Virus record (IMG/VR): IMGVR_UViG_3300035703_000005
Coordinates: 124,001 to 188,000 of that record
DNA: 64,000 nucleotides
Strand: one strand, 5' to 3'
Source of the DNA: a virus
The notes beneath the pieces are model-generated. The model was given only the letters and a program-made list of their open reading frames with translations. It made no database searches and was not told the origin of the DNA. Position numbers and translations under genes: made by a program. This document shows, piece by piece, positions 1 to 33,297 of the stretch (its first letter is position 1; every line of letters begins with the position of its first letter).

Positions 1-1370
1 AGAATTTTAGCAGCCTTTACTCTAGTTGCACCACGAACTCTCTCAGCTTTCTCAGTCGCAGTTAAACCTTTTTTTGGATTTTCTTCAGTTTTTTTTGGCT
101 TTTTTTCAGTTTTTTTTGGCTTTTTTTCATCATCACCATCACCACGAATATCCGCAAGAAGATCATCTAACTTTCCCTCAGACAATGGAGAGAATTCCAA
201 AATCATTTTTTGAACTAAAGAAACTTTCTCTTTAACTTCTTCTTTCTTTTTTTCAGGAAGACCTTCATGTTTTGTCTTTGCAAAGTCTCTTGCTGCCTTC
301 TTGCTCATACCTTCAGCAGCCTTTGCAACCTCAGGAGATGCAGGAGTTCCTCCCTTCTTTGCAGCATAAACCATTCCCATAAATCTTTGTTGCGCTCTAC
401 TTAAAGCCTTTTCTTCAATGTATTCTTCCTTAGTAAGTTCTCCAGTTGCTTTTGCTTTACGAATCTTCTTTGGATTCTTTAACTTACCGCCTGGATACAT
501 ATCCTCTTCATCGTCACGATCATAGTCAGGATCCACATTCGCACGATGTCTTGCTGCTCTCTCTGGAGATGCCTTATCGTCATGAATACCTGATCTACGA
601 AGAGGTGAAGTCTTTTCTGCTTCTCTCTTATCCTTTTGCTTTTGACGACTACGGTTCTTCTTGAAGTCCTTCATCGTCATGCCTTCTTCAACCATTTCAC
701 CTTCTAGATCATAAGATTGACGAAGTTGTTTCATTGCATCATTCAATGCATTATTTCTCTTCTGCATTCCATATGCAGCACCTGCAATACCTGTTCCAGG
801 ATTCTTGATATTTTGGCCTTTATTTGCAGCACTTACACCAGAGTCTGCAGCTTTTTTCGCTCTATTAATAGCTGCACCAGCAAGTGCAGCACCACCAGCA
901 GCAAGCCCAGCAGCAACTAATGGTGCAATTTCATCAAGTTGTTCAGTTTCTTCCTTCATCTTTTCACGTTTTGCCTTTGTCTTAGCAAGAAGTCTTTCAC
1001 GAGCAGCTTCCTGTTCAGACTTAGAAATATTAAACATATCCCTATCGGTTTTAAGTCTCTCCTGGGGAGGAATAACTTTAGCTCTAACTTTTCTACGATT
1101 TAGAAGATACTTATCTGACTTATCGTGATCTCCGTCGTTATCAATATCCTTATCTTCCTTACCAACAGGATCTAAAGCTTCTTCTACCTTCTTCTTTTTA
1201 TCGGCAGCAATCTCGGCACCGACAATCGCTCTCCTCTTCTTTAAATAACTATCGGAAGAATCCGAATCACCATCATTATCCACATCGTCATCTTCTTGAC
1301 CGATAGGATCTAGTTTTTTAGGTGTTTTAGCTTCTGCAACAATACGTGAAAATTCTTCCCAACTAGCCAT
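1..1370 (-). CDS. Putative late virion/internal protein with DUF3008-like region, cut by left edge
   Basis: The reading frame is open from an ATG at 1370 to the left edge, so about 456 residues are visible and the C terminus is missing. The N terminus (MASWEEFSRIVAEAK) resembles a capsid-targeting peptide. Two acidic DxDNDGD-type segments near residues 20-45 and 60-90 look like calcium-binding EF-hand or dockerin loops, each followed by a Lys/Arg patch. A Gly/Ala-rich hydrophobic stretch (about residues 140-165) could insert in a membrane. Around residues 320-370, the QQRFMGMVYAAKKG and KAAEGMSKKAARDFAKTKH motifs match what I recall of DUF3008. The tail is a Lys/Glu repeat. A late promoter sits just upstream. 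A role as a structural or internal head protein is inferred from these features and is not certain. Confidence 0.75.
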   Translation of the reverse strand, partial: MASWEEFSRIVAEAKTPKKLDPIGQEDDDVDNDGDSDSSDSYLKKRRAIVGAEIAADKKKKVEEALDPVGKEDKDIDNDGDHDKSDKYLLNRRKVRAKVIPPQERLKTDRDMFNISKSEQEAARERLLAKTKAKREKMKEETEQLDEIAPLVAAGLAAGGAALAGAAINRAKKAADSGVSAANKGQNIKNPGTGIAGAAYGMQKRNNALNDAMKQLRQSYDLEGEMVEEGMTMKDFKKNRSRQKQKDKREAEKTSPLRRSGIHDDKASPERAARHRANVDPDYDRDDEEDMYPGGKLKNPKKIRKAKATGELTKEEYIEEKALSRAQQRFMGMVYAAKKGGTPASPEVAKAAEGMSKKAARDFAKTKHEGLPEKKKEEVKEKVSLVQKMILEFSPLSEGKLDDLLADIRGDGDDEKKPKKTEKKPKKTEENPKKGLTATEKAERVRGATRVKAAKI

Positions 1371-1395: not shown

Positions 1396-2652
1396 TTATT
1401 TATTCTTTTTGCCCTTGCGGAATTTATCATAAATTGAAGTAATCTTAACTCCAGTATAACTCTTAACTTCTTGACCTGGAGTTAATGATTGAACATATTC
1501 CCTATATTCATCTGTTCCAATTTCGTGAGGATTCTCTACAAGATCTTTCAACCATGACTTAAACATTACGTCATCTTCAGTTACACAAATGACATAATTT
1601 GTTCCTCTACGAATTACCTCTCCTCTGAGTCCGGTATTCATATTTTCAACAAGATTACCAACCTCATAGATATGATCTACAAGATATGCATCTCTCATAC
1701 CTTCCTCATCGAGTTTAGGAGCTATTTCCCATACTTCAGTTCCTTCTTCAATATTCATAGATCTACGAAGGACATTAAATAATTCCTTTTTCTGCATATT
1801 ACCAAGAGTATCTGGAACACCCTTAGCAAATTTTACAAAATCTCCTTCTGCAGCCGCAAGTCTCAACTTAGATGCAGACATTCCAGTTACATCATCCGAA
1901 TCAGGATCTCTTTCTCCAGCAGAAACTACTTCAAGTTGATCATAGTTATAAAGCTCTCCATTATACTTATGACTTAAACCTTGAAATTCACCAAGTCTAT
2001 CTTGACCAACCATAATGATCATATTACTATGACCCTCTTCATTTGCGCCAGTCAATACATTGAAAATCGTCTTCGCGCCCTTATCATCAACAATACTATC
2101 CGCATAGTCTGGGAACATTTGACGCATATAAGAAATCTTCATTTGTGGAGTGAGAGGATTCTTCTTAGCGTCTTGTGAACGAGATGGATAAATTCTCAAT
2201 TCATAACCCCTCTTCTCAGCTTCCTTTGCAGCTCTCTTGAGAAGTTTTTCGTGGCCAATTGTAGGTGGATTAAATCTACCAAATACTACAACGACTCCTG
2301 GTGTTTCTGGAACTGGTTTTTCGACAGAAGGTTGTTCTTGTGAAGTTTGTTGTTCTGGTGGAACTTGTTGTTGTGTAGTTTGTTGGGTAGGTTCTTGAGT
2401 AGGAGCCTGTTGTGTTTGTGGTGCAGCTTGTGGTTGAACTGCTGCAGATTGAGGTTTAGAAGGTGAATCCTTTTGTCCAGGTATATTGTCACTACCAAAA
2501 AACTTTAATTTTCCAGATACAGTCTTAGCAACAAACTCACCATTTTTATCATACCATCCTCCATGACCGTCTCCACTCAAACCGAGTCTTTTGGCTTCGG
2601 CAGATGCAGAGGTCTCTCTAGCTTCAGTGAAAAACTGAGTGAAATTCTTCAT
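1396..2652 (-). CDS. NMN adenylyltransferase/cytidylyltransferase-like protein with capsid-targeting-like N terminus
   Basis: The protein has 418 residues. Residues 1-11 (MKNFTQFFTEA) align position by position with the T4 capsid-targeting peptide MKTYQEFIAE|A. A small GDGHGGWYD module follows near residue 30, then a long Gln/Pro/Thr-rich linker (about 65-115). The central domain is a nucleotidylyltransferase: GRFNPPTIGH carries the HxGH-type site and SASKLR is the ISxTxxR-type site. The C-terminal part contains a GLRGEVIRRGTNYVICV segment that looks like an SH3/KOW-type module. The usual reaction of the family is transfer of AMP or CMP from the nucleoside triphosphate, for example NMN to NAD. 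The substrate cannot be told from sequence. It has its own late promoter, so it is probably made late and may be packaged in the head. Confidence 0.8.
   Translation of the reverse strand: MKNFTQFFTEARETSASAEAKRLGLSGDGHGGWYDKNGEFVAKTVSGKLKFFGSDNIPGQKDSPSKPQSAAVQPQAAPQTQQAPTQEPTQQTTQQQVPPEQQTSQEQPSVEKPVPETPGVVVVFGRFNPPTIGHEKLLKRAAKEAEKRGYELRIYPSRSQDAKKNPLTPQMKISYMRQMFPDYADSIVDDKGAKTIFNVLTGANEEGHSNMIIMVGQDRLGEFQGLSHKYNGELYNYDQLEVVSAGERDPDSDDVTGMSASKLRLAAAEGDFVKFAKGVPDTLGNMQKKELFNVLRRSMNIEEGTEVWEIAPKLDEEGMRDAYLVDHIYEVGNLVENMNTGLRGEVIRRGTNYVICVTEDDVMFKSWLKDLVENPHEIGTDEYREYVQSLTPGQEVKSYTGVKITSIYDKFRKGKKNK
1397..1404 (-). promoter_or_regulatory. Late promoter box AATAAATA
   Basis: The minus strand reads AATAAATA 27 bases upstream of the ATG at 1370, inside the last codons of the adenylyltransferase-like gene. 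It fits the NATAAATA box repeated before virion genes in this window and the T4 late consensus TATAAATA. Confidence 0.6.
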
Positions 2653-2687: not shown

Positions 2688-2695
2688 TATTTATT
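2688..2695 (-). promoter_or_regulatory. Late promoter box AATAAATA
   Basis: AATAAATA on the minus strand, 36 bases upstream of the ATG at 2652. It overlaps the TAA stop (2694-2696) of the preceding gene. Confidence 0.6.
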
Positions 2696-3770
2696 ATTTT
2701 TCTTTTGGATTGTATGCGGCAGGACCAGCTTCAACATAGAACTTCAATTCCTTAATTTGAAAATCTTCTCCAGATCCAACAACCCTTTTCTTAAATCTCA
2801 GTTGAAATAATTCTTTATTCAATGGTTTTATAATAAATTTTAAGTTATCACTAGTTTTCTGAACATCTATTGAGTTAGTATTTTTCTGAAGTTCATTTAT
2901 ATAATCTGGGGTAATTTCTTTTATTTTTGCCTTGTCAATATCTACAACATTTGCAAGATCGGATCCGAAAGTTACGGATTTAAATAACTCAAATGCCTGA
3001 TCTTTGAAGGAAGAATTTCTAGAAGCAGTTTCTAAAGATTCCAAAGTTTCCTTGTAAAGTTCTTTTATGGTATCTACTTTTAATTTTTTTTCTGCGGGAG
3101 TTCTAGCTTGTGCAAGTTGTTCCCCCAATATTTTTCTATACTTAGCTTCTTCAGGCAATGAAATTCCAAATCTTTTAAGTATATCCATCATTCCATTATA
3201 GGGACTCAAATTAGCAAGAGTTTTACTACCAGATTTCAAAGAGAAACTTAAAGTCCTATCCATTTGTTTTTGACCATTCATAGTTACCGAAACTTCAAGA
3301 TCTCCCTTAATATCTCCACCTGAAGATTCTCCGGCAATACCATCGGCATTAATAATAATTTCAACTTGATCAGATTTATTATTTTTTAAATAACTATCTT
3401 TAGTTTTTTGAATAAGAGTCCTATAGTGTGTTTTAGTGTACAGAATTAAATTATCTATTTTTCTTTCAATATTACCTATATCAGCACTCTTTGCGTAAAG
3501 AGGTTCATAATTTGGACCAAAAGCCATATTAGTTGATTCATATTTTAGTCTAACAATTAATACAACTTTAATTTTATCTTGTGGTTTTCCGTCTTTAAAT
3601 TCTCTAATTACTATTTTTGCATTTCCATTTCTAAAAATAGATGGATCAATTTGTCTCCTCCATTTATTAATATTTCCTTTATTGATTGTCCCACCACCAC
3701 TGGCAAATAACTCCGCAAGACATATGGCAAAGATGCCTTCCATTACATCCCCTTCATTTAACTTTGCCAT
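2694..3770 (-). CDS. Conserved-looking late protein of unknown function, 358 aa
   Basis: I do not recognise this 358-residue protein with confidence. It starts at an ATG just after a hairpin and late promoter, so late expression is likely. The N terminus is helical (MAKLNEGDVMEGIFAICLA). The middle alternates strands and charged helices and includes SFSLKSGSKT near residue 175, which recalls the Lys-bearing strand of PD-(D/E)xK or restriction-type nucleases, but a complete catalytic set is not evident. The C-terminal half is rich in Lys and Glu. No signal peptide or membrane segment is apparent. It could be a structural protein or a DNA-processing enzyme. Confidence 0.7.
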   Translation of the reverse strand: MAKLNEGDVMEGIFAICLAELFASGGGTINKGNINKWRRQIDPSIFRNGNAKIVIREFKDGKPQDKIKVVLIVRLKYESTNMAFGPNYEPLYAKSADIGNIERKIDNLILYTKTHYRTLIQKTKDSYLKNNKSDQVEIIINADGIAGESSGGDIKGDLEVSVTMNGQKQMDRTLSFSLKSGSKTLANLSPYNGMMDILKRFGISLPEEAKYRKILGEQLAQARTPAEKKLKVDTIKELYKETLESLETASRNSSFKDQAFELFKSVTFGSDLANVVDIDKAKIKEITPDYINELQKNTNSIDVQKTSDNLKFIIKPLNKELFQLRFKKRVVGSGEDFQIKELKFYVEAGPAAYNPKEK

Positions 3771-10907: not shown

Positions 10908-11072
10908 TTATGCGCCGTCTCCACCAGCACTTGAAGAAGATCTCTTAGCACATGCTTTGCCCCCAGGTGCCATGGCATACTTAATTACTTTATAGCACTT
11001 TACTTTAGGTTTAGGAGCAGGTGATCCGAAATCTCCTTCCGCTTCGGACATAAATTGCTTAAAGGATTTCAT
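10908..11072 (-). CDS. 54-aa basic protein with capsid-targeting-like N terminus
   Basis: The gene runs from an ATG at 11072, overlapping the last 14 bases of hsp20, to TAA at 10908. Residues 1-11, MKSFKQFMSEA, align without gaps to the T4 internal-protein leader MKTYQEFIAE|A. Cleavage after Glu10 would leave a 44-residue peptide rich in Lys, Ser and Gly with two cysteines (C24 and C41). No enzymatic family is visible. It may be a small internal head protein; that is inferred from the N terminus alone. A terminator follows. Confidence 0.72.
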   Translation of the reverse strand: MKSFKQFMSEAEGDFGSPAPKPKVKCYKVIKYAMAPGGKACAKRSSSSAGGDGA

Positions 11073-18190: not shown

Positions 18191-19045
18191 TCAGTCTCTT
18201 GCCGAGTGCATCATTTCTTCGCCGCGTTTTTTATCTTCACGGCGTTTTGCTACCTTTTGTGCAGGAGAAACTGCAGGTGCTTCTGGTTTTACTTTACCAG
18301 TGCGATCTTTTTTCTTTCCTCTTTCTTGAATTGCTCCACCAGCACCCATTCTACCAGCACCCATAACCTTGTGCATGTGTCTCATGACTTTTGAGTCAAG
18401 GTCATCGCCGCCCATGGTGCCACCTTTAACTACTGGTTTTCCAGTTTTATAATCCTTACCAGTTTTTTTCTCATAACGATTAAGTTCCATAATATCCTCA
18501 AACCAGGCTTCACTCATGTTGAGAATAATTTTATCGGCAGCTTCTTCAGTTGAAGCAAAACCTTCATCAAGAAGATAGGAAAAAACTAACTCATAAGCAT
18601 TAAAACTTTCAGCACTTACACCAGTTTTCTTCTGTCTTTCTGCCTTTTTACCTTTTGGTTTTCCACCAGAATCACTTGGACCACCATCAAAGTCTGGATC
18701 ATAACCAGTATGTCCGTATTCCGCCTCACCTCTTGCGTGATCTCTATCACTTTGAGTCATTCCACTTCTTCTACCTGAATAGGGAGAAGGTTTAGTTGAC
18801 TTCTTACCTCTATTTCCCGCATCAGGATTAAGAGTTCTGTAGTGGTGTTTTTCTGCAGATTTTACTTTTGCAGTCTTTTCACCTCTTTTTGAAAATCCAC
18901 TTGCAGGAGTAGATCTTCTCTTATTAGCAAGGGAACCATAAGCAGCAGTTGCTTTTGGAGTTTGTCCATAAGAACCTTCTGCTTCATCAAGTTGACCAAC
19001 CTGACTATAAGCTTCTTGCAATCCCTGTAAATGTTCTGCGTCCAT
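18191..19045 (-). CDS. Putative late structural protein, 284 aa (LQEAY family)
   Basis: I chose the ATG at 19045 (MDAEHLQGLQEAYSQV), which is preceded by a late-promoter box; an ATG 19 codons upstream would read through the terminator. The N terminus, and the segment ELVFSYLLDEGFASTEEAAD with ILNMSEAWFEDIM (about 165-200), are shared with the 191-residue protein at 21406-21981, so the two are paralogues. The rest is Lys/Gly/Arg-rich and low in hydrophobic residues, suggesting disorder. An LDE|A site near residue 21 would suit the prohead protease. Role in the virion is inferred. Confidence 0.72.
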   Translation of the reverse strand: MDAEHLQGLQEAYSQVGQLDEAEGSYGQTPKATAAYGSLANKRRSTPASGFSKRGEKTAKVKSAEKHHYRTLNPDAGNRGKKSTKPSPYSGRRSGMTQSDRDHARGEAEYGHTGYDPDFDGGPSDSGGKPKGKKAERQKKTGVSAESFNAYELVFSYLLDEGFASTEEAADKIILNMSEAWFEDIMELNRYEKKTGKDYKTGKPVVKGGTMGGDDLDSKVMRHMHKVMGAGRMGAGGAIQERGKKKDRTGKVKPEAPAVSPAQKVAKRREDKKRGEEMMHSARD

Positions 19046-19064
19046 TTTTACAATACTTTTTAAG

Positions 19065-19072
19065 TATTTAGT
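19065..19072 (-). promoter_or_regulatory. Late promoter variant ACTAAATA
   Basis: The minus strand reads ACTAAATAC 20 bases upstream of the ATG at 19045, immediately after the terminator of the vWA gene. It differs from NATAAATA at one position. Confidence 0.5.
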
Positions 19073-19094
19073 AAAAAAGGAGGGTTTCCCCTCC
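19073..19094 (-). terminator. Rho-independent terminator after the vWA gene
   Basis: On the minus strand AGGAGGGGAAACCCTCCT forms a compact stem followed by TTTTTT. It directly abuts the TGA stop at 19095. Confidence 0.85.
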
Positions 19095-21305
19095 TCATGC
19101 AACTAGTTCAATGAACTCTCCAAGAACTTTTTTATTCATTTTTTTACACTTCAGTGACTTAGCGAAGGCAGTTCGGATTTGAGTTTTACTTGCATCATCT
19201 GAAACATCAAACTCCGTCTCGTTAGAAAGAGCCGAACCGGAAAGTCCAAAGTATGCATGATATCCGGATTTCTTAATTGCAAAAGATTTATTCTTTTTCC
19301 AGTCATTCATGATTTCATTATACTCCTTATTTTCCTGATAGTAACCAAAAGAATAATCGGAACTCTCATAGTAACGACGAATAAAACTTCCCGCATCACG
19401 ACCTTCTAGAACCCGAATACCAATAAAGTTTATATCAGTGAAACGATCACGAAGATTACGAAGAAGAACATCAGTAAAACTAGTATAATCTCCTTCCAAC
19501 TTATAAGTAGAACCGATCTTACGATCACGAAGAATTGTATTGGATCCGATAGAGTTCAGACCAATGTACACTTCCTCAGTATCATAATTAAAACGACCTT
19601 TGAATTCCTTATGAAATTTAAGAGGTGCAGCTTCACCATCAGTCAGAACAACACATTGAACTTTCTGAAGTTTATTTTCCCGTTGAAATTGAGGAAGAAT
19701 TTGATGAAGTGCAACCAAAGTTTCATTCAAGGGAGTTCCAGAAAGAGAGAGACGGTGTGGATGACTGTACTCAGGTGCATTATTATAACTGTACTTAAAC
19801 TCTTTAGCTAACCTAAAGATATTGATCATCTGTTCTTCAAGAACACGATTATTTACTTTACTAGTAAACAAGTTCATGAGTGAAAAAGTTTCATCTACAT
19901 AGATCAATCCGTGTTTCTTTTCATAATGCGGTTTCATAGATTTTGGACGATGATTTTCATCATAGTCATAACGACGCCACTCATTAGTAAAAGCATAGAC
20001 CTCAAACGGAATCGCAACTTTCTTACAAAACCACATCAAGTTATAAAGTTGTTTGAGAGTGTCCATCATCACTTGAGACATGGAACCAGACCAATCCAGA
20101 ACAAATACAAGACCATGATTCTTACCATTAGAAAGAGTGGTGACTTTCTTGAAAAGATCTTCATTGTATTTGTAAGTATGAAGTTTAGAACAGTCCAGAA
20201 CACCAGTACGAGCGGTTGTAGCACGGGCATAAGAATCTGCTGCCTTACGACACTCAAACTCTTTCACAAGATAATTAACTTCTTTCTGCGCAGAACGCTT
20301 GAATTCCCGATACTCTTTATCTACCTCACCAAAAAGATATTCTTTGGGATTGTGTTCATAAGAATATTTTGCAATAGTTTTTTCCCACCAATCGTTGATC
20401 TCTTTATGAACTTCAACATTTAAACCAATAACACTATCGAGATTAAGTTTAGGAAGTTCCAGATAAGTGTTTTCTGACCCATTCATGTTCACAAGATCAC
20501 GAAGAGCTTCTTCTAGATTGTCAGCGGTTTTAACTTCAGGTTCGGCGGATTCTCCACCAAGATTTGAACTAGTATCAGTAGGGGAATCCATTTTATCATC
20601 CGACTGACCATCAGAGGACGCCTGGCCACCCTCTCCAGAAGTTTCCAAGTCATCCTCCTGAGAAGGATTTTGTTCCTCTTGAGGCGCACTTTCCGACCCA
20701 TTGCCAGGAGTTGATTGAAGATTATCAAAAGAATCAATTTTAATTTGTTCTTTATCCTTCCTCTTACAATACTCGTAAAGTTTTACGGCAGCTGCAATCG
20801 CATCATCAAAAGTTTCTGCATCAGCAACCATATTCAGGATTTCAGTTTCTTCACCCCGTTCAATAGGAATCTGAGTGAACCCACCAATCTTAAACCACAG
20901 ATTTACGCGATCTGCAAGATTGTAGGTAGAGATATCATCGTCTTTGATTTGAAAAAAATCGTCCTCATGCAGTTCTTTATAACCTGCGAAGAAAGATTTG
21001 TTCAGACCCGCATAACGACGCTTCATCATCTTCTCAATACGAGCGTCTTCCGTCACATTCACGAATTGTTGAGGAATCGTAAACTTCTTACTCCAATCTT
21101 CATTAGGAGTATAGAGAGCATGACCCACTTCATGACCAACAAGCATGTCATAGACTGCGTTAGAAGCTTTCTCCCACATCGGAAGAGTCAGAACGCGAGT
21201 GTCTACATTGAAACATGCAGTAGGAACTTGTTTGTGTTCTACCACAAGGTCTTCTGTTGCGAGAAGACGAGCGAGTTGACCTTTGACTTCGTGATTAACA
21301 GGCAT
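19095..21305 (-). CDS. Metallopeptidase-like protein with C-terminal vWA domain (CobT-like)
   Basis: From the ATG at 21305 the protein has 736 residues. The in-frame extension to 21389 passes through a terminator and was not used. Residues 58-62 are HEVGH, a zinc peptidase motif, followed by VTEDARIEKMMKRRYAG. An acidic Ser/Gln-rich linker spans about 210-290. The C-terminal vWA domain has the metal-binding DWSGS at 404-408, with LSGTPLNETLVAL and VVLTDGEAAP as later MIDAS parts. CobT-type proteins pair with CobS/MoxR ATPases, and such an ATPase is encoded just downstream. The substrate is unknown. A terminator and a GTATTATAG box lie upstream, suggesting early expression. Confidence 0.85.
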   Translation of the reverse strand: MPVNHEVKGQLARLLATEDLVVEHKQVPTACFNVDTRVLTLPMWEKASNAVYDMLVGHEVGHALYTPNEDWSKKFTIPQQFVNVTEDARIEKMMKRRYAGLNKSFFAGYKELHEDDFFQIKDDDISTYNLADRVNLWFKIGGFTQIPIERGEETEILNMVADAETFDDAIAAAVKLYEYCKRKDKEQIKIDSFDNLQSTPGNGSESAPQEEQNPSQEDDLETSGEGGQASSDGQSDDKMDSPTDTSSNLGGESAEPEVKTADNLEEALRDLVNMNGSENTYLELPKLNLDSVIGLNVEVHKEINDWWEKTIAKYSYEHNPKEYLFGEVDKEYREFKRSAQKEVNYLVKEFECRKAADSYARATTARTGVLDCSKLHTYKYNEDLFKKVTTLSNGKNHGLVFVLDWSGSMSQVMMDTLKQLYNLMWFCKKVAIPFEVYAFTNEWRRYDYDENHRPKSMKPHYEKKHGLIYVDETFSLMNLFTSKVNNRVLEEQMINIFRLAKEFKYSYNNAPEYSHPHRLSLSGTPLNETLVALHQILPQFQRENKLQKVQCVVLTDGEAAPLKFHKEFKGRFNYDTEEVYIGLNSIGSNTILRDRKIGSTYKLEGDYTSFTDVLLRNLRDRFTDINFIGIRVLEGRDAGSFIRRYYESSDYSFGYYQENKEYNEIMNDWKKNKSFAIKKSGYHAYFGLSGSALSNETEFDVSDDASKTQIRTAFAKSLKCKKMNKKVLGEFIELVA

Positions 21306-21405: not shown

Positions 21406-21981
21406 TTACCAATTATCCTGAAGTTCATTACTTCTAGGTCTTCCCGCATCTCTTTTACGTCCTCCTGTTCGTCTATTATCGTCCTCTTTTCTTTGAGATC
21501 TATTAGGATTATGAGCATCAGCAACCTTGCCCATTTTTGCAACTCGTTTTGGATTGCTATGCCTTGCAGATTGGTTTATCATTTTGCCTACAGGAAGTTT
21601 TTTATATCCTTCATCAACAATCTCTTCTCTCCACTCCTCACTCATATTTACCATAATTACTTGTGCTGCTTCTGGTGTTTCGGCATATCCTTCATCAAGA
21701 AGATGTGAGAGAATGATATCGTAGTAATCATAACTATCAGATACAGCAATACGACTATCCTTTACTTCTTTACCTGCTCTTCTTCTTGCTCTATTACCAG
21801 AACCAACATCTTCTGGTTTTTGTCTTTTACGAGCACTAAGTTTTCTAAGAGTTTCAACATCTCTTAGTTTTCTATCAAGTAAATCAGATGCCTTTTGTTT
21901 GCGAGCACCAGTAAGTTCTTCATCAACCTGATGAACTTGATTATATGCTTCTTGAAGATTGCAAAGTTCTTGTGCGTCCAT
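21406..21981 (-). CDS. Putative late structural protein, 191 aa (LQEAY family)
   Basis: The protein begins MDAQELCNLQEAYNQVHQVDE, matching the 284-residue protein at 18191-19045. It also shares YDIILSHLLDEGYAETPEAA with VNMSEEWREEIV (about 85-125). The C-terminal 70 residues are very basic (Arg, Lys, Asn), as in DNA-contacting internal proteins. A perfect TATAAATA late box lies upstream and a terminator follows, so it is a single-gene late unit. The function is unknown. Confidence 0.75.
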   Translation of the reverse strand: MDAQELCNLQEAYNQVHQVDEELTGARKQKASDLLDRKLRDVETLRKLSARKRQKPEDVGSGNRARRRAGKEVKDSRIAVSDSYDYYDIILSHLLDEGYAETPEAAQVIMVNMSEEWREEIVDEGYKKLPVGKMINQSARHSNPKRVAKMGKVADAHNPNRSQRKEDDNRRTGGRKRDAGRPRSNELQDNW

Positions 21982-29971: not shown

Positions 29972-31366
29972 TCACATTAAGTTGGAGACCTTTACTCTTC
30001 TGTAGTAACGGTTTGCATTGAGGCGTAGTCTGCCAAGACCCTGATCGGTTCCTTCTGCAAATGGGTTTGCAACGATTCCGTAACGAGTCTTGAATCCGAT
30101 TTTTGGCTGGAAGGTGTCCTGACCAACGGCACGAACCATCTGGAGAGGAACATATGGGCAGTAGAAGATACCAGCATCGTATGCGCTAGAACCCTTATAA
30201 CCTACAACGTAGTACTGATCAGCAGCAACGTTTGCAGCATATGGGTCAATGTATACACGATACTTACCTTGGAGAACACCAGCGAAGGTGTTACCAGTGT
30301 CATCAACGTTTAGGTTAGCGTTGAGTGCAGGGGTGTAATCAAGAACACCAGCCATGGTTAGAGCGGAAGCAACGTCTGCGGAGCAGATGATGGTATTGCC
30401 CTTTCCTCTACGAGTTCTTTGTGCGATTGCGTTAGCATCACGCTCGATCTGGAAAAGTAGACCCTTGAACTTCTCAACGGACCAACGACCATTGGAGTCA
30501 ACGTCGAGGTCAAATACACCAGCGGTAGCAGTGTTAACAGCAGCACCTTGCTCAGCAACCTTATAGATGGTTCTGATGACTTCTCTGTTGATTTCAGCGA
30601 GGATCTCAGTGGAGAGAATGTTAGCAAGTTCTGCTTCTGCGTTTAGACCGTGGATTGCCTTGAGGTCTTGAGCGAGCTCTAGGGAGTACTCAGCCTTGAG
30701 GGCACGTGACTTAGCAGTTACGGTAACTTTCTCGATGCTGAATGCCATCTGGTTGAAGGCATTAGATGCAGAATCTCCAAGAGCTTCTGAATCACCAGTA
30801 GCCATACCCTGACCAACATTATATGGTGATGGGTTGGTGGTTGCAGATCCAACTGGGTTGAGAACGTTAGGATTGGTTCCATCCTGGTTGGTTGTACCGA
30901 AACCAACGAGACCATCGGAGAATCCGTTGGCAAGGTTACGGCTGTTGTTCTGACCAGAGAAGGTGGTATCTACTTCATCGAAGAAGGTCTCAGTACCAGA
31001 CTGAGAATCGTAACGGGAACGCATTGCGAAGATGAGTCCAGTAGGACCACTCATTGGCTGAACACCACAGATGTCATAAGCAATGAGGTTAGGCATTGCA
31101 CGACGAATGAGGCTGATTAGAACTGGGTCGAAACCAGCAACAGGTCCACCAGCAGTAGCGGAACCAGAGAAACCACCAGTACCAGCAGAGTTAACTGGGG
31201 AAGCTTCGCCAAGGAACTCAGCAGACTCGCGTAGTTCTCTCTCTTGGTTCTCTAGAAGTTGTGCAGTTACTGCACGTCTGTGGGAATCTTTGATGTCGCC
31301 TAGACCGTCGAAGTCTAGAACTGGAGCCCACTTCTCCATTAACATTTGTGAGTTAATTCCGTCCAT
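29972..31366 (-). CDS. gp23: Major capsid protein gp23
   Basis: The 464-residue protein is the T4-like major head protein. It begins MDGINSQMLMEKWAPVLD and has the conserved NLIAYDICGVQPMSGPTGLIFAMR. A prohead protease site LGE|A lies after residue 54 in EFLGEASPVN, comparable to cleavage after Glu65 in T4. The C terminus contains TFQPKIGFKTRYGIVANPFA, the standard gp23 end. Codon use is more G/C-ended than in neighbours, as expected for the most highly expressed gene. A strong terminator follows. Its own late promoter is unclear: GATAATAC near 31420 is only a partial match. Confidence 0.97.
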   Translation of the reverse strand: MDGINSQMLMEKWAPVLDFDGLGDIKDSHRRAVTAQLLENQERELRESAEFLGEASPVNSAGTGGFSGSATAGGPVAGFDPVLISLIRRAMPNLIAYDICGVQPMSGPTGLIFAMRSRYDSQSGTETFFDEVDTTFSGQNNSRNLANGFSDGLVGFGTTNQDGTNPNVLNPVGSATTNPSPYNVGQGMATGDSEALGDSASNAFNQMAFSIEKVTVTAKSRALKAEYSLELAQDLKAIHGLNAEAELANILSTEILAEINREVIRTIYKVAEQGAAVNTATAGVFDLDVDSNGRWSVEKFKGLLFQIERDANAIAQRTRRGKGNTIICSADVASALTMAGVLDYTPALNANLNVDDTGNTFAGVLQGKYRVYIDPYAANVAADQYYVVGYKGSSAYDAGIFYCPYVPLQMVRAVGQDTFQPKIGFKTRYGIVANPFAEGTDQGLGRLRLNANRYYRRVKVSNLM

Positions 31367-31426: not shown

Positions 31427-32599
31427 TCACTTTTTAGCAACGTTGGAAAGCGCGCGTAGATAAGCGTCCATAGAAGGTGAATGATTCACTTCTTGGAAAT
31501 TTGCTTCTTCTGTTAGATTTTCCGTTTCGTTTGCTGGAATACCAGCGTTTCTTGGGAAGTATGACTCCCTAAGAGTTACCAGCTTCTGGTAATAGTCATT
31601 CTCACTCTCAAACTCAACACTTTCAGAGAGGCTTGCAAGCTTGTCCTTTTGGGAAAGAGCTAGACCCTCAGAAACTTGGTTTAGAATTCTGTCAGCGGCA
31701 GATTCTGCAAGTTTCGTATTTAGAGCAATATTCTTTTGAATTTGCTCGTTGAGTTTTGTCTCCATTTCATCAAGTTTTTCTACCATGCTCTCTAGTACAT
31801 CATATTTTTCTTCAGGCATTGATACATAATGTTCTTCAAAAAGACCCTTCATACCAGCGATGAAGGACTCAGTGATCTCAGTCTTGAGACCACTTTCAAC
31901 TGCGAGAGCATTTTCTTCTAACCATTCGGATGCAACATACTCAAGATATGAGTCAACTCTTTCGGTTAGTTCTAGTTTGATCTCTTCGATCTCTTCTGCA
32001 AGAGCAGCAGCATAGTGCTCTTCCAGAGAAGATTGAATTTCTTTTGTTTTAGCGTGAAGAGCAGCTTCAAATACTAATTTTGCTTTTTCTTTGAATTCTT
32101 CGGATAACTCTTCTTCGCCGGAGAGGAGAGCATTTACGTCCTCATCAATGATAGAATTTACATCCTCTTCGACAACTTCTTCTGCATCTTCCTCAGATTC
32201 GGTTTCTTCAACCTCACCTTCTTCGTCACCTTCTTCTGCAATTATTTCTTCTTCAACTTCTTCTTCAACTTCTTCTTTCATACCACCACCTTGACCTGGG
32301 GTAGCAACGGAAGTTGCAGAAGTTGCAGCAGCATCAGGTGCAGAAGCTTTAGCATTTACAACGTCCTTAACTTGCTTAAGAGTTGCGCCAGGTGTTTTTA
32401 ACATGTTGGAATTATCATCTGGCTTGCTGTTTTCTGGAGTTGGGCCTCCAAGATCTTCCCAAGCACCAGTTTGACCAGGAGTTGCAACTGGAGTTGCGCT
32501 CTTGTGTGGTGCTTCCGGTGCAGATGCGTTAGCATTTACAGCGGTTTTGGATTGTGAAGTGCCGGTTTCCATTTCTTGTAAATTTTTACCACGGGACAT
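31427..32599 (-). CDS. gp22: Prohead scaffold core protein gp22
   Basis: The 390-residue protein has a very acidic stretch (about 110-150) followed by long helices, as expected of the internal scaffold that is digested by gp21. The N-terminal 110 residues carry a duplicated segment with SATPVATPGQ and SATSVATPGQ. The C-terminal DAYLRALSNVAKK resembles the end of other gp22 proteins. It is placed between gp21 and gp23, as in T4, and has a double late-promoter box. Confidence 0.93.
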   Translation of the reverse strand: MSRGKNLQEMETGTSQSKTAVNANASAPEAPHKSATPVATPGQTGAWEDLGGPTPENSKPDDNSNMLKTPGATLKQVKDVVNAKASAPDAAATSATSVATPGQGGGMKEEVEEEVEEEIIAEEGDEEGEVEETESEEDAEEVVEEDVNSIIDEDVNALLSGEEELSEEFKEKAKLVFEAALHAKTKEIQSSLEEHYAAALAEEIEEIKLELTERVDSYLEYVASEWLEENALAVESGLKTEITESFIAGMKGLFEEHYVSMPEEKYDVLESMVEKLDEMETKLNEQIQKNIALNTKLAESAADRILNQVSEGLALSQKDKLASLSESVEFESENDYYQKLVTLRESYFPRNAGIPANETENLTEEANFQEVNHSPSMDAYLRALSNVAKK

Positions 32600-32646: not shown

Positions 32647-33297
32647 TTAAAGATTTGATAAAAACTCTTGGAACAGATTTAATTTCTGTTCATCAAGTCT
32701 TCTTTGATCAACAAGAGTGTTAATTCTCTTTTGAGTATTGGAAGCAAGTTGTTCACGAAGAATTCCTCCTTCCCAAACCCACTCCTTTCCTTCCATAATT
32801 CCAGATACAAATGCATCAGGAGCTGAAGGATCAGCAACAATATCTGCAGCAGTTGCAAGCATAAAATCTTCACCAACTACTTTATAACCTTCATTAGTTG
32901 TAGTTAATGAACCTACACCACGAGAAGAAACTCCTAACATTACACCTTCATCAAGAAGAGAAGATGCAATTTTGCCCATTGGAGTATTAAGAATCTGAGC
33001 TTTACCTACAAAGTTATTTCCCTCTTGAACAAGAGAAGTAATTTTGTGAGAAACACGATCGAGATTAACTGTTGGTCCATCTGGATGACCAAGCTCTCCG
33101 AGAGCACGACCCTTCGCAACAAAACTTTCATTATAACGATTTACTTCACGAGTAAGGGTTGTAATAGGATACATTCTTCCATTACGATTTTTAATTTCGC
33201 CTTGGAGAAATACTCCTTCAATATAAAGTTTTTTATCAGCACCTTTTCCTTCGGTGATAATCTTTACATTTGTTACTTCTTCGGTGATTAGTTTCAT
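32647..33297 (-). CDS. gp21: Prohead core protease gp21
   Basis: The 216-residue serine protease has H71 in GELGHPDG, S124/S125 in LGVSSRGVGS and the N-terminal KNRNGRMYPITTL typical of the family. It cuts gp22, gp23 and the internal proteins after (L/I)xE-type sites during head maturation. The C-terminal 30 residues are helical and may be removed by autocleavage. It follows the 89-residue gene after five bases. Confidence 0.95.
   Translation of the reverse strand: MKLITEEVTNVKIITEGKGADKKLYIEGVFLQGEIKNRNGRMYPITTLTREVNRYNESFVAKGRALGELGHPDGPTVNLDRVSHKITSLVQEGNNFVGKAQILNTPMGKIASSLLDEGVMLGVSSRGVGSLTTTNEGYKVVGEDFMLATAADIVADPSAPDAFVSGIMEGKEWVWEGGILREQLASNTQKRINTLVDQRRLDEQKLNLFQEFLSNL

Follow-up and report, generated by a model that had tools for sequence, protein, structure and literature searches.

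The 418-amino-acid (aa) nucleotidylyltransferase-like protein analysed here begins with a capsid-targeting-type tag of the kind found on the internal proteins of phage T4, and we put the probability that this tag targets the enzyme into the phage head at roughly three in four. The source record, which comes from a virus of ocean cyanobacteria, has 248,835 bases, and its positions 124001-188000, a stretch of 64,000 nucleotides, constitute the window to which coordinates refer unless stated otherwise. Packaging into the head had been proposed in the initial annotation and is well supported by the T4-type tag, by a T4-type protease and scaffold, by tagged virion proteins, by homologues of the enzyme in virions, and by a late-promoter motif.

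Gene, locus, and domain organization

Pfam assigns the protein to CTP_transf_like (PF01467) with 27.4 bits at a cut-off of 21, and its PHROG match is the cytidyltransferase family phrog_395 (E=4e-96). Homologues are present in 555 phage records, chiefly of Synechococcus and Prochlorococcus phages, the nearest relatives of the protein being those of T4-like cyanophages, and the genes around the enzyme gene are T4-type replication genes, which were named by reading their translations. The gene and the parts of its product are as follows:

1396..2652, minus strand: nucleotidylyltransferase-like protein with N-terminal capsid-targeting-type tag (ORF, ATG start, 418 aa; PF01467; phrog_395)
2623..2652, minus strand: residues 1-10, MKNFTQFFTE, capsid-targeting-type tag (gapless alignment to T4 IPII/IPIII; predicted cut after Glu10)
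2488..2610, minus strand: residues 15-55, small shared module (profile search; without Pfam match)
2305..2487, minus strand: residues 56-116, Pro/Gln-rich variable linker, predicted disordered (pLDDT mostly <50; conservation 49%)
1783..2301, minus strand: residues 118-290, nucleotidylyltransferase domain with T131-I-G-H134 and S259-A-S-K-L-R264 (PF01467, AlphaFold, Foldseek)
1531..1662, minus strand: residues 331-374, small C-terminal beta domain, SH3-like by strand pattern only (predicted secondary structure)

In the AlphaFold model, residues 120-300 are predicted well, with block means mostly of 74-92 and one of 65, and the tag and the linker poorly. Mean conservation among 11 representatives with <80% identity amounts to 75% in the tag, 64% in the catalytic domain, and 49% in the linker. 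The C-terminal beta domain has profile matches in NMNAT-like proteins and in two other phage proteins. The product of the downstream neighbour (3-1370, minus strand) starts with MASWEEFSRIVAEA, repeats the motif LDPxGxEDxDxDNDGDxDxSDxYL, and resembles the virion protein ORF92 of phage S-SCSM1; by eye, its DUF3008-like part is like virion protein ORF93. A homology of the upstream neighbour (2694-3770) to the S-SCSM1 virion protein ORF90 is not supported.

The N-terminal tag

The tag on the 418-aa protein is real, and the gapless N-terminal match to T4 that the initial annotation had described was confirmed by reading the T4 record: MKNFTQFFTEA here corresponds to MKTYQEFIAEA of IPII and IPIII. 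The residues are identical at positions 1, 2, 7, 10, and 11, and with IPII also at position 12; position 4 is Phe here and Tyr in IPII and IPIII. Glu10 is indeed followed by Ala11, as had been claimed. In the T4 leader, targeting depends mainly on residues 4 and 7, and processing on residues 8 and 10 (PMC9026906); Phe4 and Phe7 are both present at the targeting positions of the 418-aa protein. Met1, Phe4, and Glu10 are invariant and Ala11 is nearly so in 31 members of the enzyme family, and in the 11 representatives Phe4, Glu10, and Ala11 are conserved to 100% and Lys2 and Phe7 to 91%, with positions 3, 5, 6, 8, and 9 varying. One clade of the family has another start (MSFFKKVRTILEA or IIEG), yet the (I/L)xE↓(A/G) site is kept.

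A degenerate start pattern, MKx[FY]xxF[hydrophobic]xE, was defined for pattern searches. Its two matches in the window compare with 0.01 expected, and two were obtained in none of 100 shuffles (0/100); four matches occur in the 248.8-kb genome, compared with zero in the reversed control. T4 itself has three, namely IPII, IPIII, and gp61.1. The last of these, the sole T4 match besides the two internal proteins, is a hypothetical protein of 54 aa (L231:967-1131, minus strand) which starts MKTFKEFIKE.

Enzyme domain and substrate

Of the two catalytic motifs named in the initial annotation, SxSxxR was found (S259-A-S-K-L-R264), but the presumed HxGH site is TxGH instead (T131-I-G-H134). The last His of the TxGH motif, Ser259, and Arg264 are invariant across the family (31 members); in one clade, TKEH replaces TxGH. 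Profile, fold, catalytic His, and SxSxxR together identify the domain as a nucleotidylyltransferase of the HIGH type (CTP_transf_like). NMN is not singled out as the substrate: the folds of NMNAT, NaMNAT, and PPAT match alike, and NMN/NAD activity is therefore one guess among several.

A Foldseek search with the AlphaFold model returned the nucleotidylyltransferase fold, the best E-value belonging to the bifunctional NadM and the best target-normalised TM (0.72) to PPAT, with NadD and NMNAT at about 0.5-0.7; the identity in these fold matches is 12-19%. The sequence-profile search of the PDB yielded a weak and partial match only. The likeliest single substrate class for the body of the protein is that of an NMN/NaMN-type adenylyltransferase, an assignment which is tentative and falls somewhat short of even odds; besides the NadM match, a weak but real PHROG match to the phage NMN adenylyltransferase family (E=5e-4) argues for it. 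A serious competitor, to which we also give less than even odds, is an enzyme that is packaged and delivered and transfers its nucleotide to a different substrate, e.g. phosphopantetheine or a phosphosugar. The top TM value of PPAT points in this direction, as do the TxGH form, which occurs in PPATs also, and the absence of an NAPRTase/NAMPT-family partner gene from all seven phages searched; furthermore, HIGH-type nucleotidyltransferases acting on phosphosugars have been proposed in jumbo phages, cyanophages among them. Restoration of NAD by phages is known for other enzymes (NARP1; PMC12774641).

The tag as a portable label

Four tagged ORFs are present in this genome, the enzyme gene included, and the leader is common to otherwise unrelated proteins. 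The other three are:

10908..11072, minus strand: second tagged ORF of the window, 54 aa, MKSFKQFMSEAEGD (MKSFKQFMSEAEGDFGSPAPKPKVKCYKVIKYAM...) (start-pattern match)
L079:973-1530, genome position 221726, outside the window, minus strand: tagged basic 185-aa protein MKTFKQFLHEATLNK... (tag and partial S-AdoMet_lyase match)
L076:1216-1530, genome position 123049, just left of the window, minus strand: tagged 104-aa protein MKSFKQFLSESINIAGDFNGNLY... (tag)

The 54-aa ORF overlaps the end of an Hsp20-like gene. With a partial SAM-lyase match of 25.4 bits, just below the curated cut-off of 28, the 185-aa protein is possibly a packaged anti-restriction protein.

A survey for genes with the same leading peptide, suggested in the initial annotation, was carried out on viral contigs with the narrower pattern MK[ST]FK[QE]F[hydrophobic]xE and gave at least 120 tagged starts, on as many stretches of viral contigs; scrambled controls gave 3 matches with Phe7 shifted by one position and 4 with both Phe residues replaced by Ala. 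Among the matches listed, all 85 that were read start an open frame that has 50 or more codons or continues past the end of the contig. The 78 proteins of at least 60 aa among the matches listed were clustered by BLAST after removal of the first 14 residues. They fell into 37 clusters, counted here as about 38 because SAM lyases share the largest with a family of approximately 105 aa; distant relatives may have ended up in separate clusters. The family of the tagged 104-aa protein accounts for about 23 of the 78 tagged proteins among the matches listed, and its S-SCSM1 member is without a virion-protein mark. Pfam families recognized among the matches listed comprise S-adenosylmethionine lyase, ART-PolyVal, and a double-psi barrel protein, in addition to a probable methyltransferase with a score just under the cut-off and CTP_transf_like proteins, two above the cut-off and one below. 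Two simpler accounts of the tag were rejected: a chance N terminus in view of the expectation of 0.01 in the window and of the scrambled controls, and a feature restricted to the NMNAT-like family in view of the tagged starts on unrelated proteins.

Of 20 tagged contigs (31-169 kb), 9 encode a T4-type capsid protein and 9 a prohead protease (one weak), and each was found on 0 of 6 control contigs; given the fragmentary contigs and the small control, this co-occurrence counts as consistent only. The viral contig L128 (6505-9422, minus strand) has within 3 kb a group of four different tagged genes, coding for 158, 119, 275, and 175 aa; this group, which is without Pfam families, is likely a cargo cluster.

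The shared module which follows the tag in the 418-aa protein is a small predicted unit (residues 15-55) with the consensus GLxGDGHGGWYDxxGEFVAKT. In a search with its profile, the module was found in a 687-aa protein of S-B05, in the Cas9-like gp12 together with relatives from S-N03 and S-CRM01, and, as two copies per protein, in the kinases of S-CREM2 and S-N03, so that virion-detected kinases and the Cas9-like nuclease of other cyanophages are among the carriers. As the same label stands on many unrelated proteins of T4-type phages, injected proteins may be readable from sequence. We lean, at somewhat better than even odds, towards the view that T4-type phages of many hosts use the T4 capsid-targeting sequence as a general address label which can be read from sequence; this would allow injected proteins (SAM lyases, ADP-ribosyltransferases, kinases, Cas9-like nucleases, nucleotidylyltransferases) to be listed from genomes. 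On the same view, the label is often followed in cyanophages by the second portable module, which is present twice in the kinases.

Virion association and expression

The virion association of the enzyme family is already known from three phages. We take T4-GC190 to be the same family as the 418-aa enzyme. The putative citidylyltransferase of this group was detected in S-SM1 virions (PMC3037559), the enzyme homologue ORF91 in S-SCSM1 virions (PMC9602691), and the cytidylyltransferase gp154, with 3 unique peptides, in S-CREM2 virions, where 52 of 219 annotated proteins were detected (PMC10665884). A relaxed tag rule, M..[FYLWIM]..F[ILMFV].E, selects five starts in S-CREM2, i.e. those of the SAM hydrolase gp6, gp13, the APH-like kinase gp14, gp136, and the cytidylyltransferase gp154. 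Every one of these was detected in virions (P=6e-4 against all proteins, an optimistic value because the rule was relaxed after the S-CREM2 N-termini had been seen); under the strict T4-like rule, it is three out of three (P=0.013). In S-SCSM1 the relaxed rule selects two starts, that of the NMNAT, marked as a virion protein, and that of an unmarked 106-aa protein; pooled, six of the seven tagged starts in the two phages belong to virion proteins (P=5e-4, optimistic for the same post hoc rule). S-CRM01 has a run of adjacent genes with the same kind of start, among them a kinase whose start, MISFDQFLSE, fails the ATG-Lys pattern and agrees with the looser rule; a putative serine/threonine kinase has been reported in S-CRM01 virions (as cited in PMC10665884).

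S-CREM2 gp12 (L072:7704-10313, minus strand), a virion-detected protein annotated as a Cas9-like nuclease for which the Pfam search gave no match, has the tag motif from about residue 16, after an SRWxxW stretch common to its S-N03 and S-CRM01 relatives. The ORFs 18191-19102 and 21406-21981 (both minus strand) have in common a start of the form MDAxxLxxLQEAYxQV, at an internal Met in the first, followed by a further domain, and the S-SCSM1 virion protein ORF89 starts with MDSKTFNSLSEAYAAVYS; starts of this type are possibly a second kind of packaging tag.

Upstream of the enzyme gene, a promoter-like motif was located:

2688..2695, minus strand: T4-type late-promoter-like motif AATAAATA, 43 nt upstream of the enzyme start codon

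The motif NATAAATA is found before gp22, gp20, gp18, and gp13 and is missing before most replication genes around the enzyme gene, and W-ATAAATA occurs on the coding strand only (17 vs 0). TAAATA is present at most 60 nt upstream in 20 of 30 homologues; for the remaining long ORFs of these loci the figure is 100 of 264 (P=0.002, the sequences being non-independent). These motif data suggest that the enzyme gene may be expressed together with the virion genes.

An enzyme which acts late in the producing cell, appears in virion preparations as soluble carry-over, and has an N-terminal peptide without a packaging role is an unlikely explanation. The authors of the S-SCSM1 and S-CREM2 studies named carry-over as possible and left the location inside the particle open (PMC9602691; PMC10665884), the S-SCSM1 virion list also has a translational repressor which is likely carry-over, and gp154 was recognized by its three peptides only; yet the same peptide begins many unrelated proteins, unlike a family N-terminus, the tagged starts of S-CREM2 were detected without exception, and detection recurs across several phages and different laboratories.

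Protease, scaffold, and the predicted cut

The partners expected for a T4-type tag are encoded in the window, which also contains a T4-type portal gene:

32647..33297, minus strand: T4-type prohead protease (gp21), predicted remover of the tag (PF03420, 131 bits)
31427..32599, minus strand: T4-type scaffold (gp22), predicted docking partner (PF25623, 261 bits)
29972..31366, minus strand: T4-type major capsid protein (gp23) (PF07068, 510 bits)

The gp23 propeptide has a matching LGE↓A site, as read from the sequence. The T4 protease follows the site rule L/I-x-E (PMC9026906). In the 418-aa protein, Glu10-Ala11 fits the protease site and position 8 is Phe, outside this rule; close relatives have Leu8 or Ile8. 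Position 8 is Ile or Leu in 66 of 84 tags and Phe in 2 of 84 among the matches listed, with Phe, Leu, Ile, Met, and Val all allowed by the pattern, a bias expected if a T4-type protease reads the site. Since Phe8 is rare among the tags and lies outside L/I-x-E, cutting of the 418-aa protein may be slow or absent; removal of the tag after Glu10 is plausible. A further unlikely reading, in which the tag brings the protein to the prohead core to help with structure or scaffolding, and the protein remains uncut or is without effect in the next cell, its enzyme domain being a relic, would accommodate Phe8, the TKEH clade with its not fully fixed active site, and the head-assembly role of T4 IPIII (PMC9026906), but is opposed by the invariance of the last motif His, Ser259, and Arg264 and by the several other enzymes that carry the tag.

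If, as we prefer, the tag targets the enzyme into the head, it would dock the protein on the scaffold core during prohead assembly, with Phe4 and Phe7, the key positions in T4, and the gp21-type protease would cut after Glu10. By analogy with the T4 internal proteins, the enzyme would stay in the head while DNA is packed and would enter the next host with it, where an enzyme of the NMN/NaMN type could maintain or restore NAD early in infection. Our certainty falls in the order of Glu10 cleavage in this phage, injection, and NAD metabolism.

Significance and comparison with known systems

Little is known to date of the cargo which marine T4-type phages deliver beside their DNA, and enzymes that turn up in virion preparations are often dismissed as possible contaminants. 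With a short label from which packaging can be predicted, such cargo becomes a testable list, and attention is drawn to functions exerted during the earliest minutes of infection; reporter proteins could also be loaded into cyanophage heads by means of this tag. If the NMN activity holds true, cells that deplete NAD as a defence could have it restored with the help of a packaged enzyme. The leader has long served to identify the internal proteins of T-even phages (PMC12373910). No cyanophage capsid-targeting sequence was found in the literature searched, which had subscription journals and supplementary files outside its scope, and what appears to be new within this literature is the link of virion association to the leader, along with the wide spread of the label and the second module.

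T4 IPI, IPII, and IPIII share with the proteins described here a ten-residue N-terminal leader with the same key positions, common to otherwise unrelated proteins; in IPII and IPIII the Glu10-Ala11 junction is the same, and a T4-type protease and scaffold are encoded in the genome. In T4, the internal proteins are small and either inhibit restriction enzymes or have no known function (PMC12373910), whereas the cargo here is a 418-aa enzyme with a further shared module and with Phe at position 8. T4 Alt is alike in idea, being a head-packaged enzyme delivered at infection, as the enzyme here would be, but it is an ADP-ribosyltransferase with its own 7-residue propeptide (PMC9026906). NadM, NadD, and PPAT have the fold, (T/H)xGH, and SxSxxR in common with the 418-aa protein, which differs from them by its extra N- and C-terminal modules and by the low identity given above. 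Closest is the cyanophage "cytidyltransferase" or NMNAT core protein (T4-GC190, phrog_395; S-SCSM1 ORF91, S-CREM2 gp154), which belongs to the same family, has the same type of tag, and was detected in virions of three phages; in the published work searched, packaging was left open and the tag is not named.
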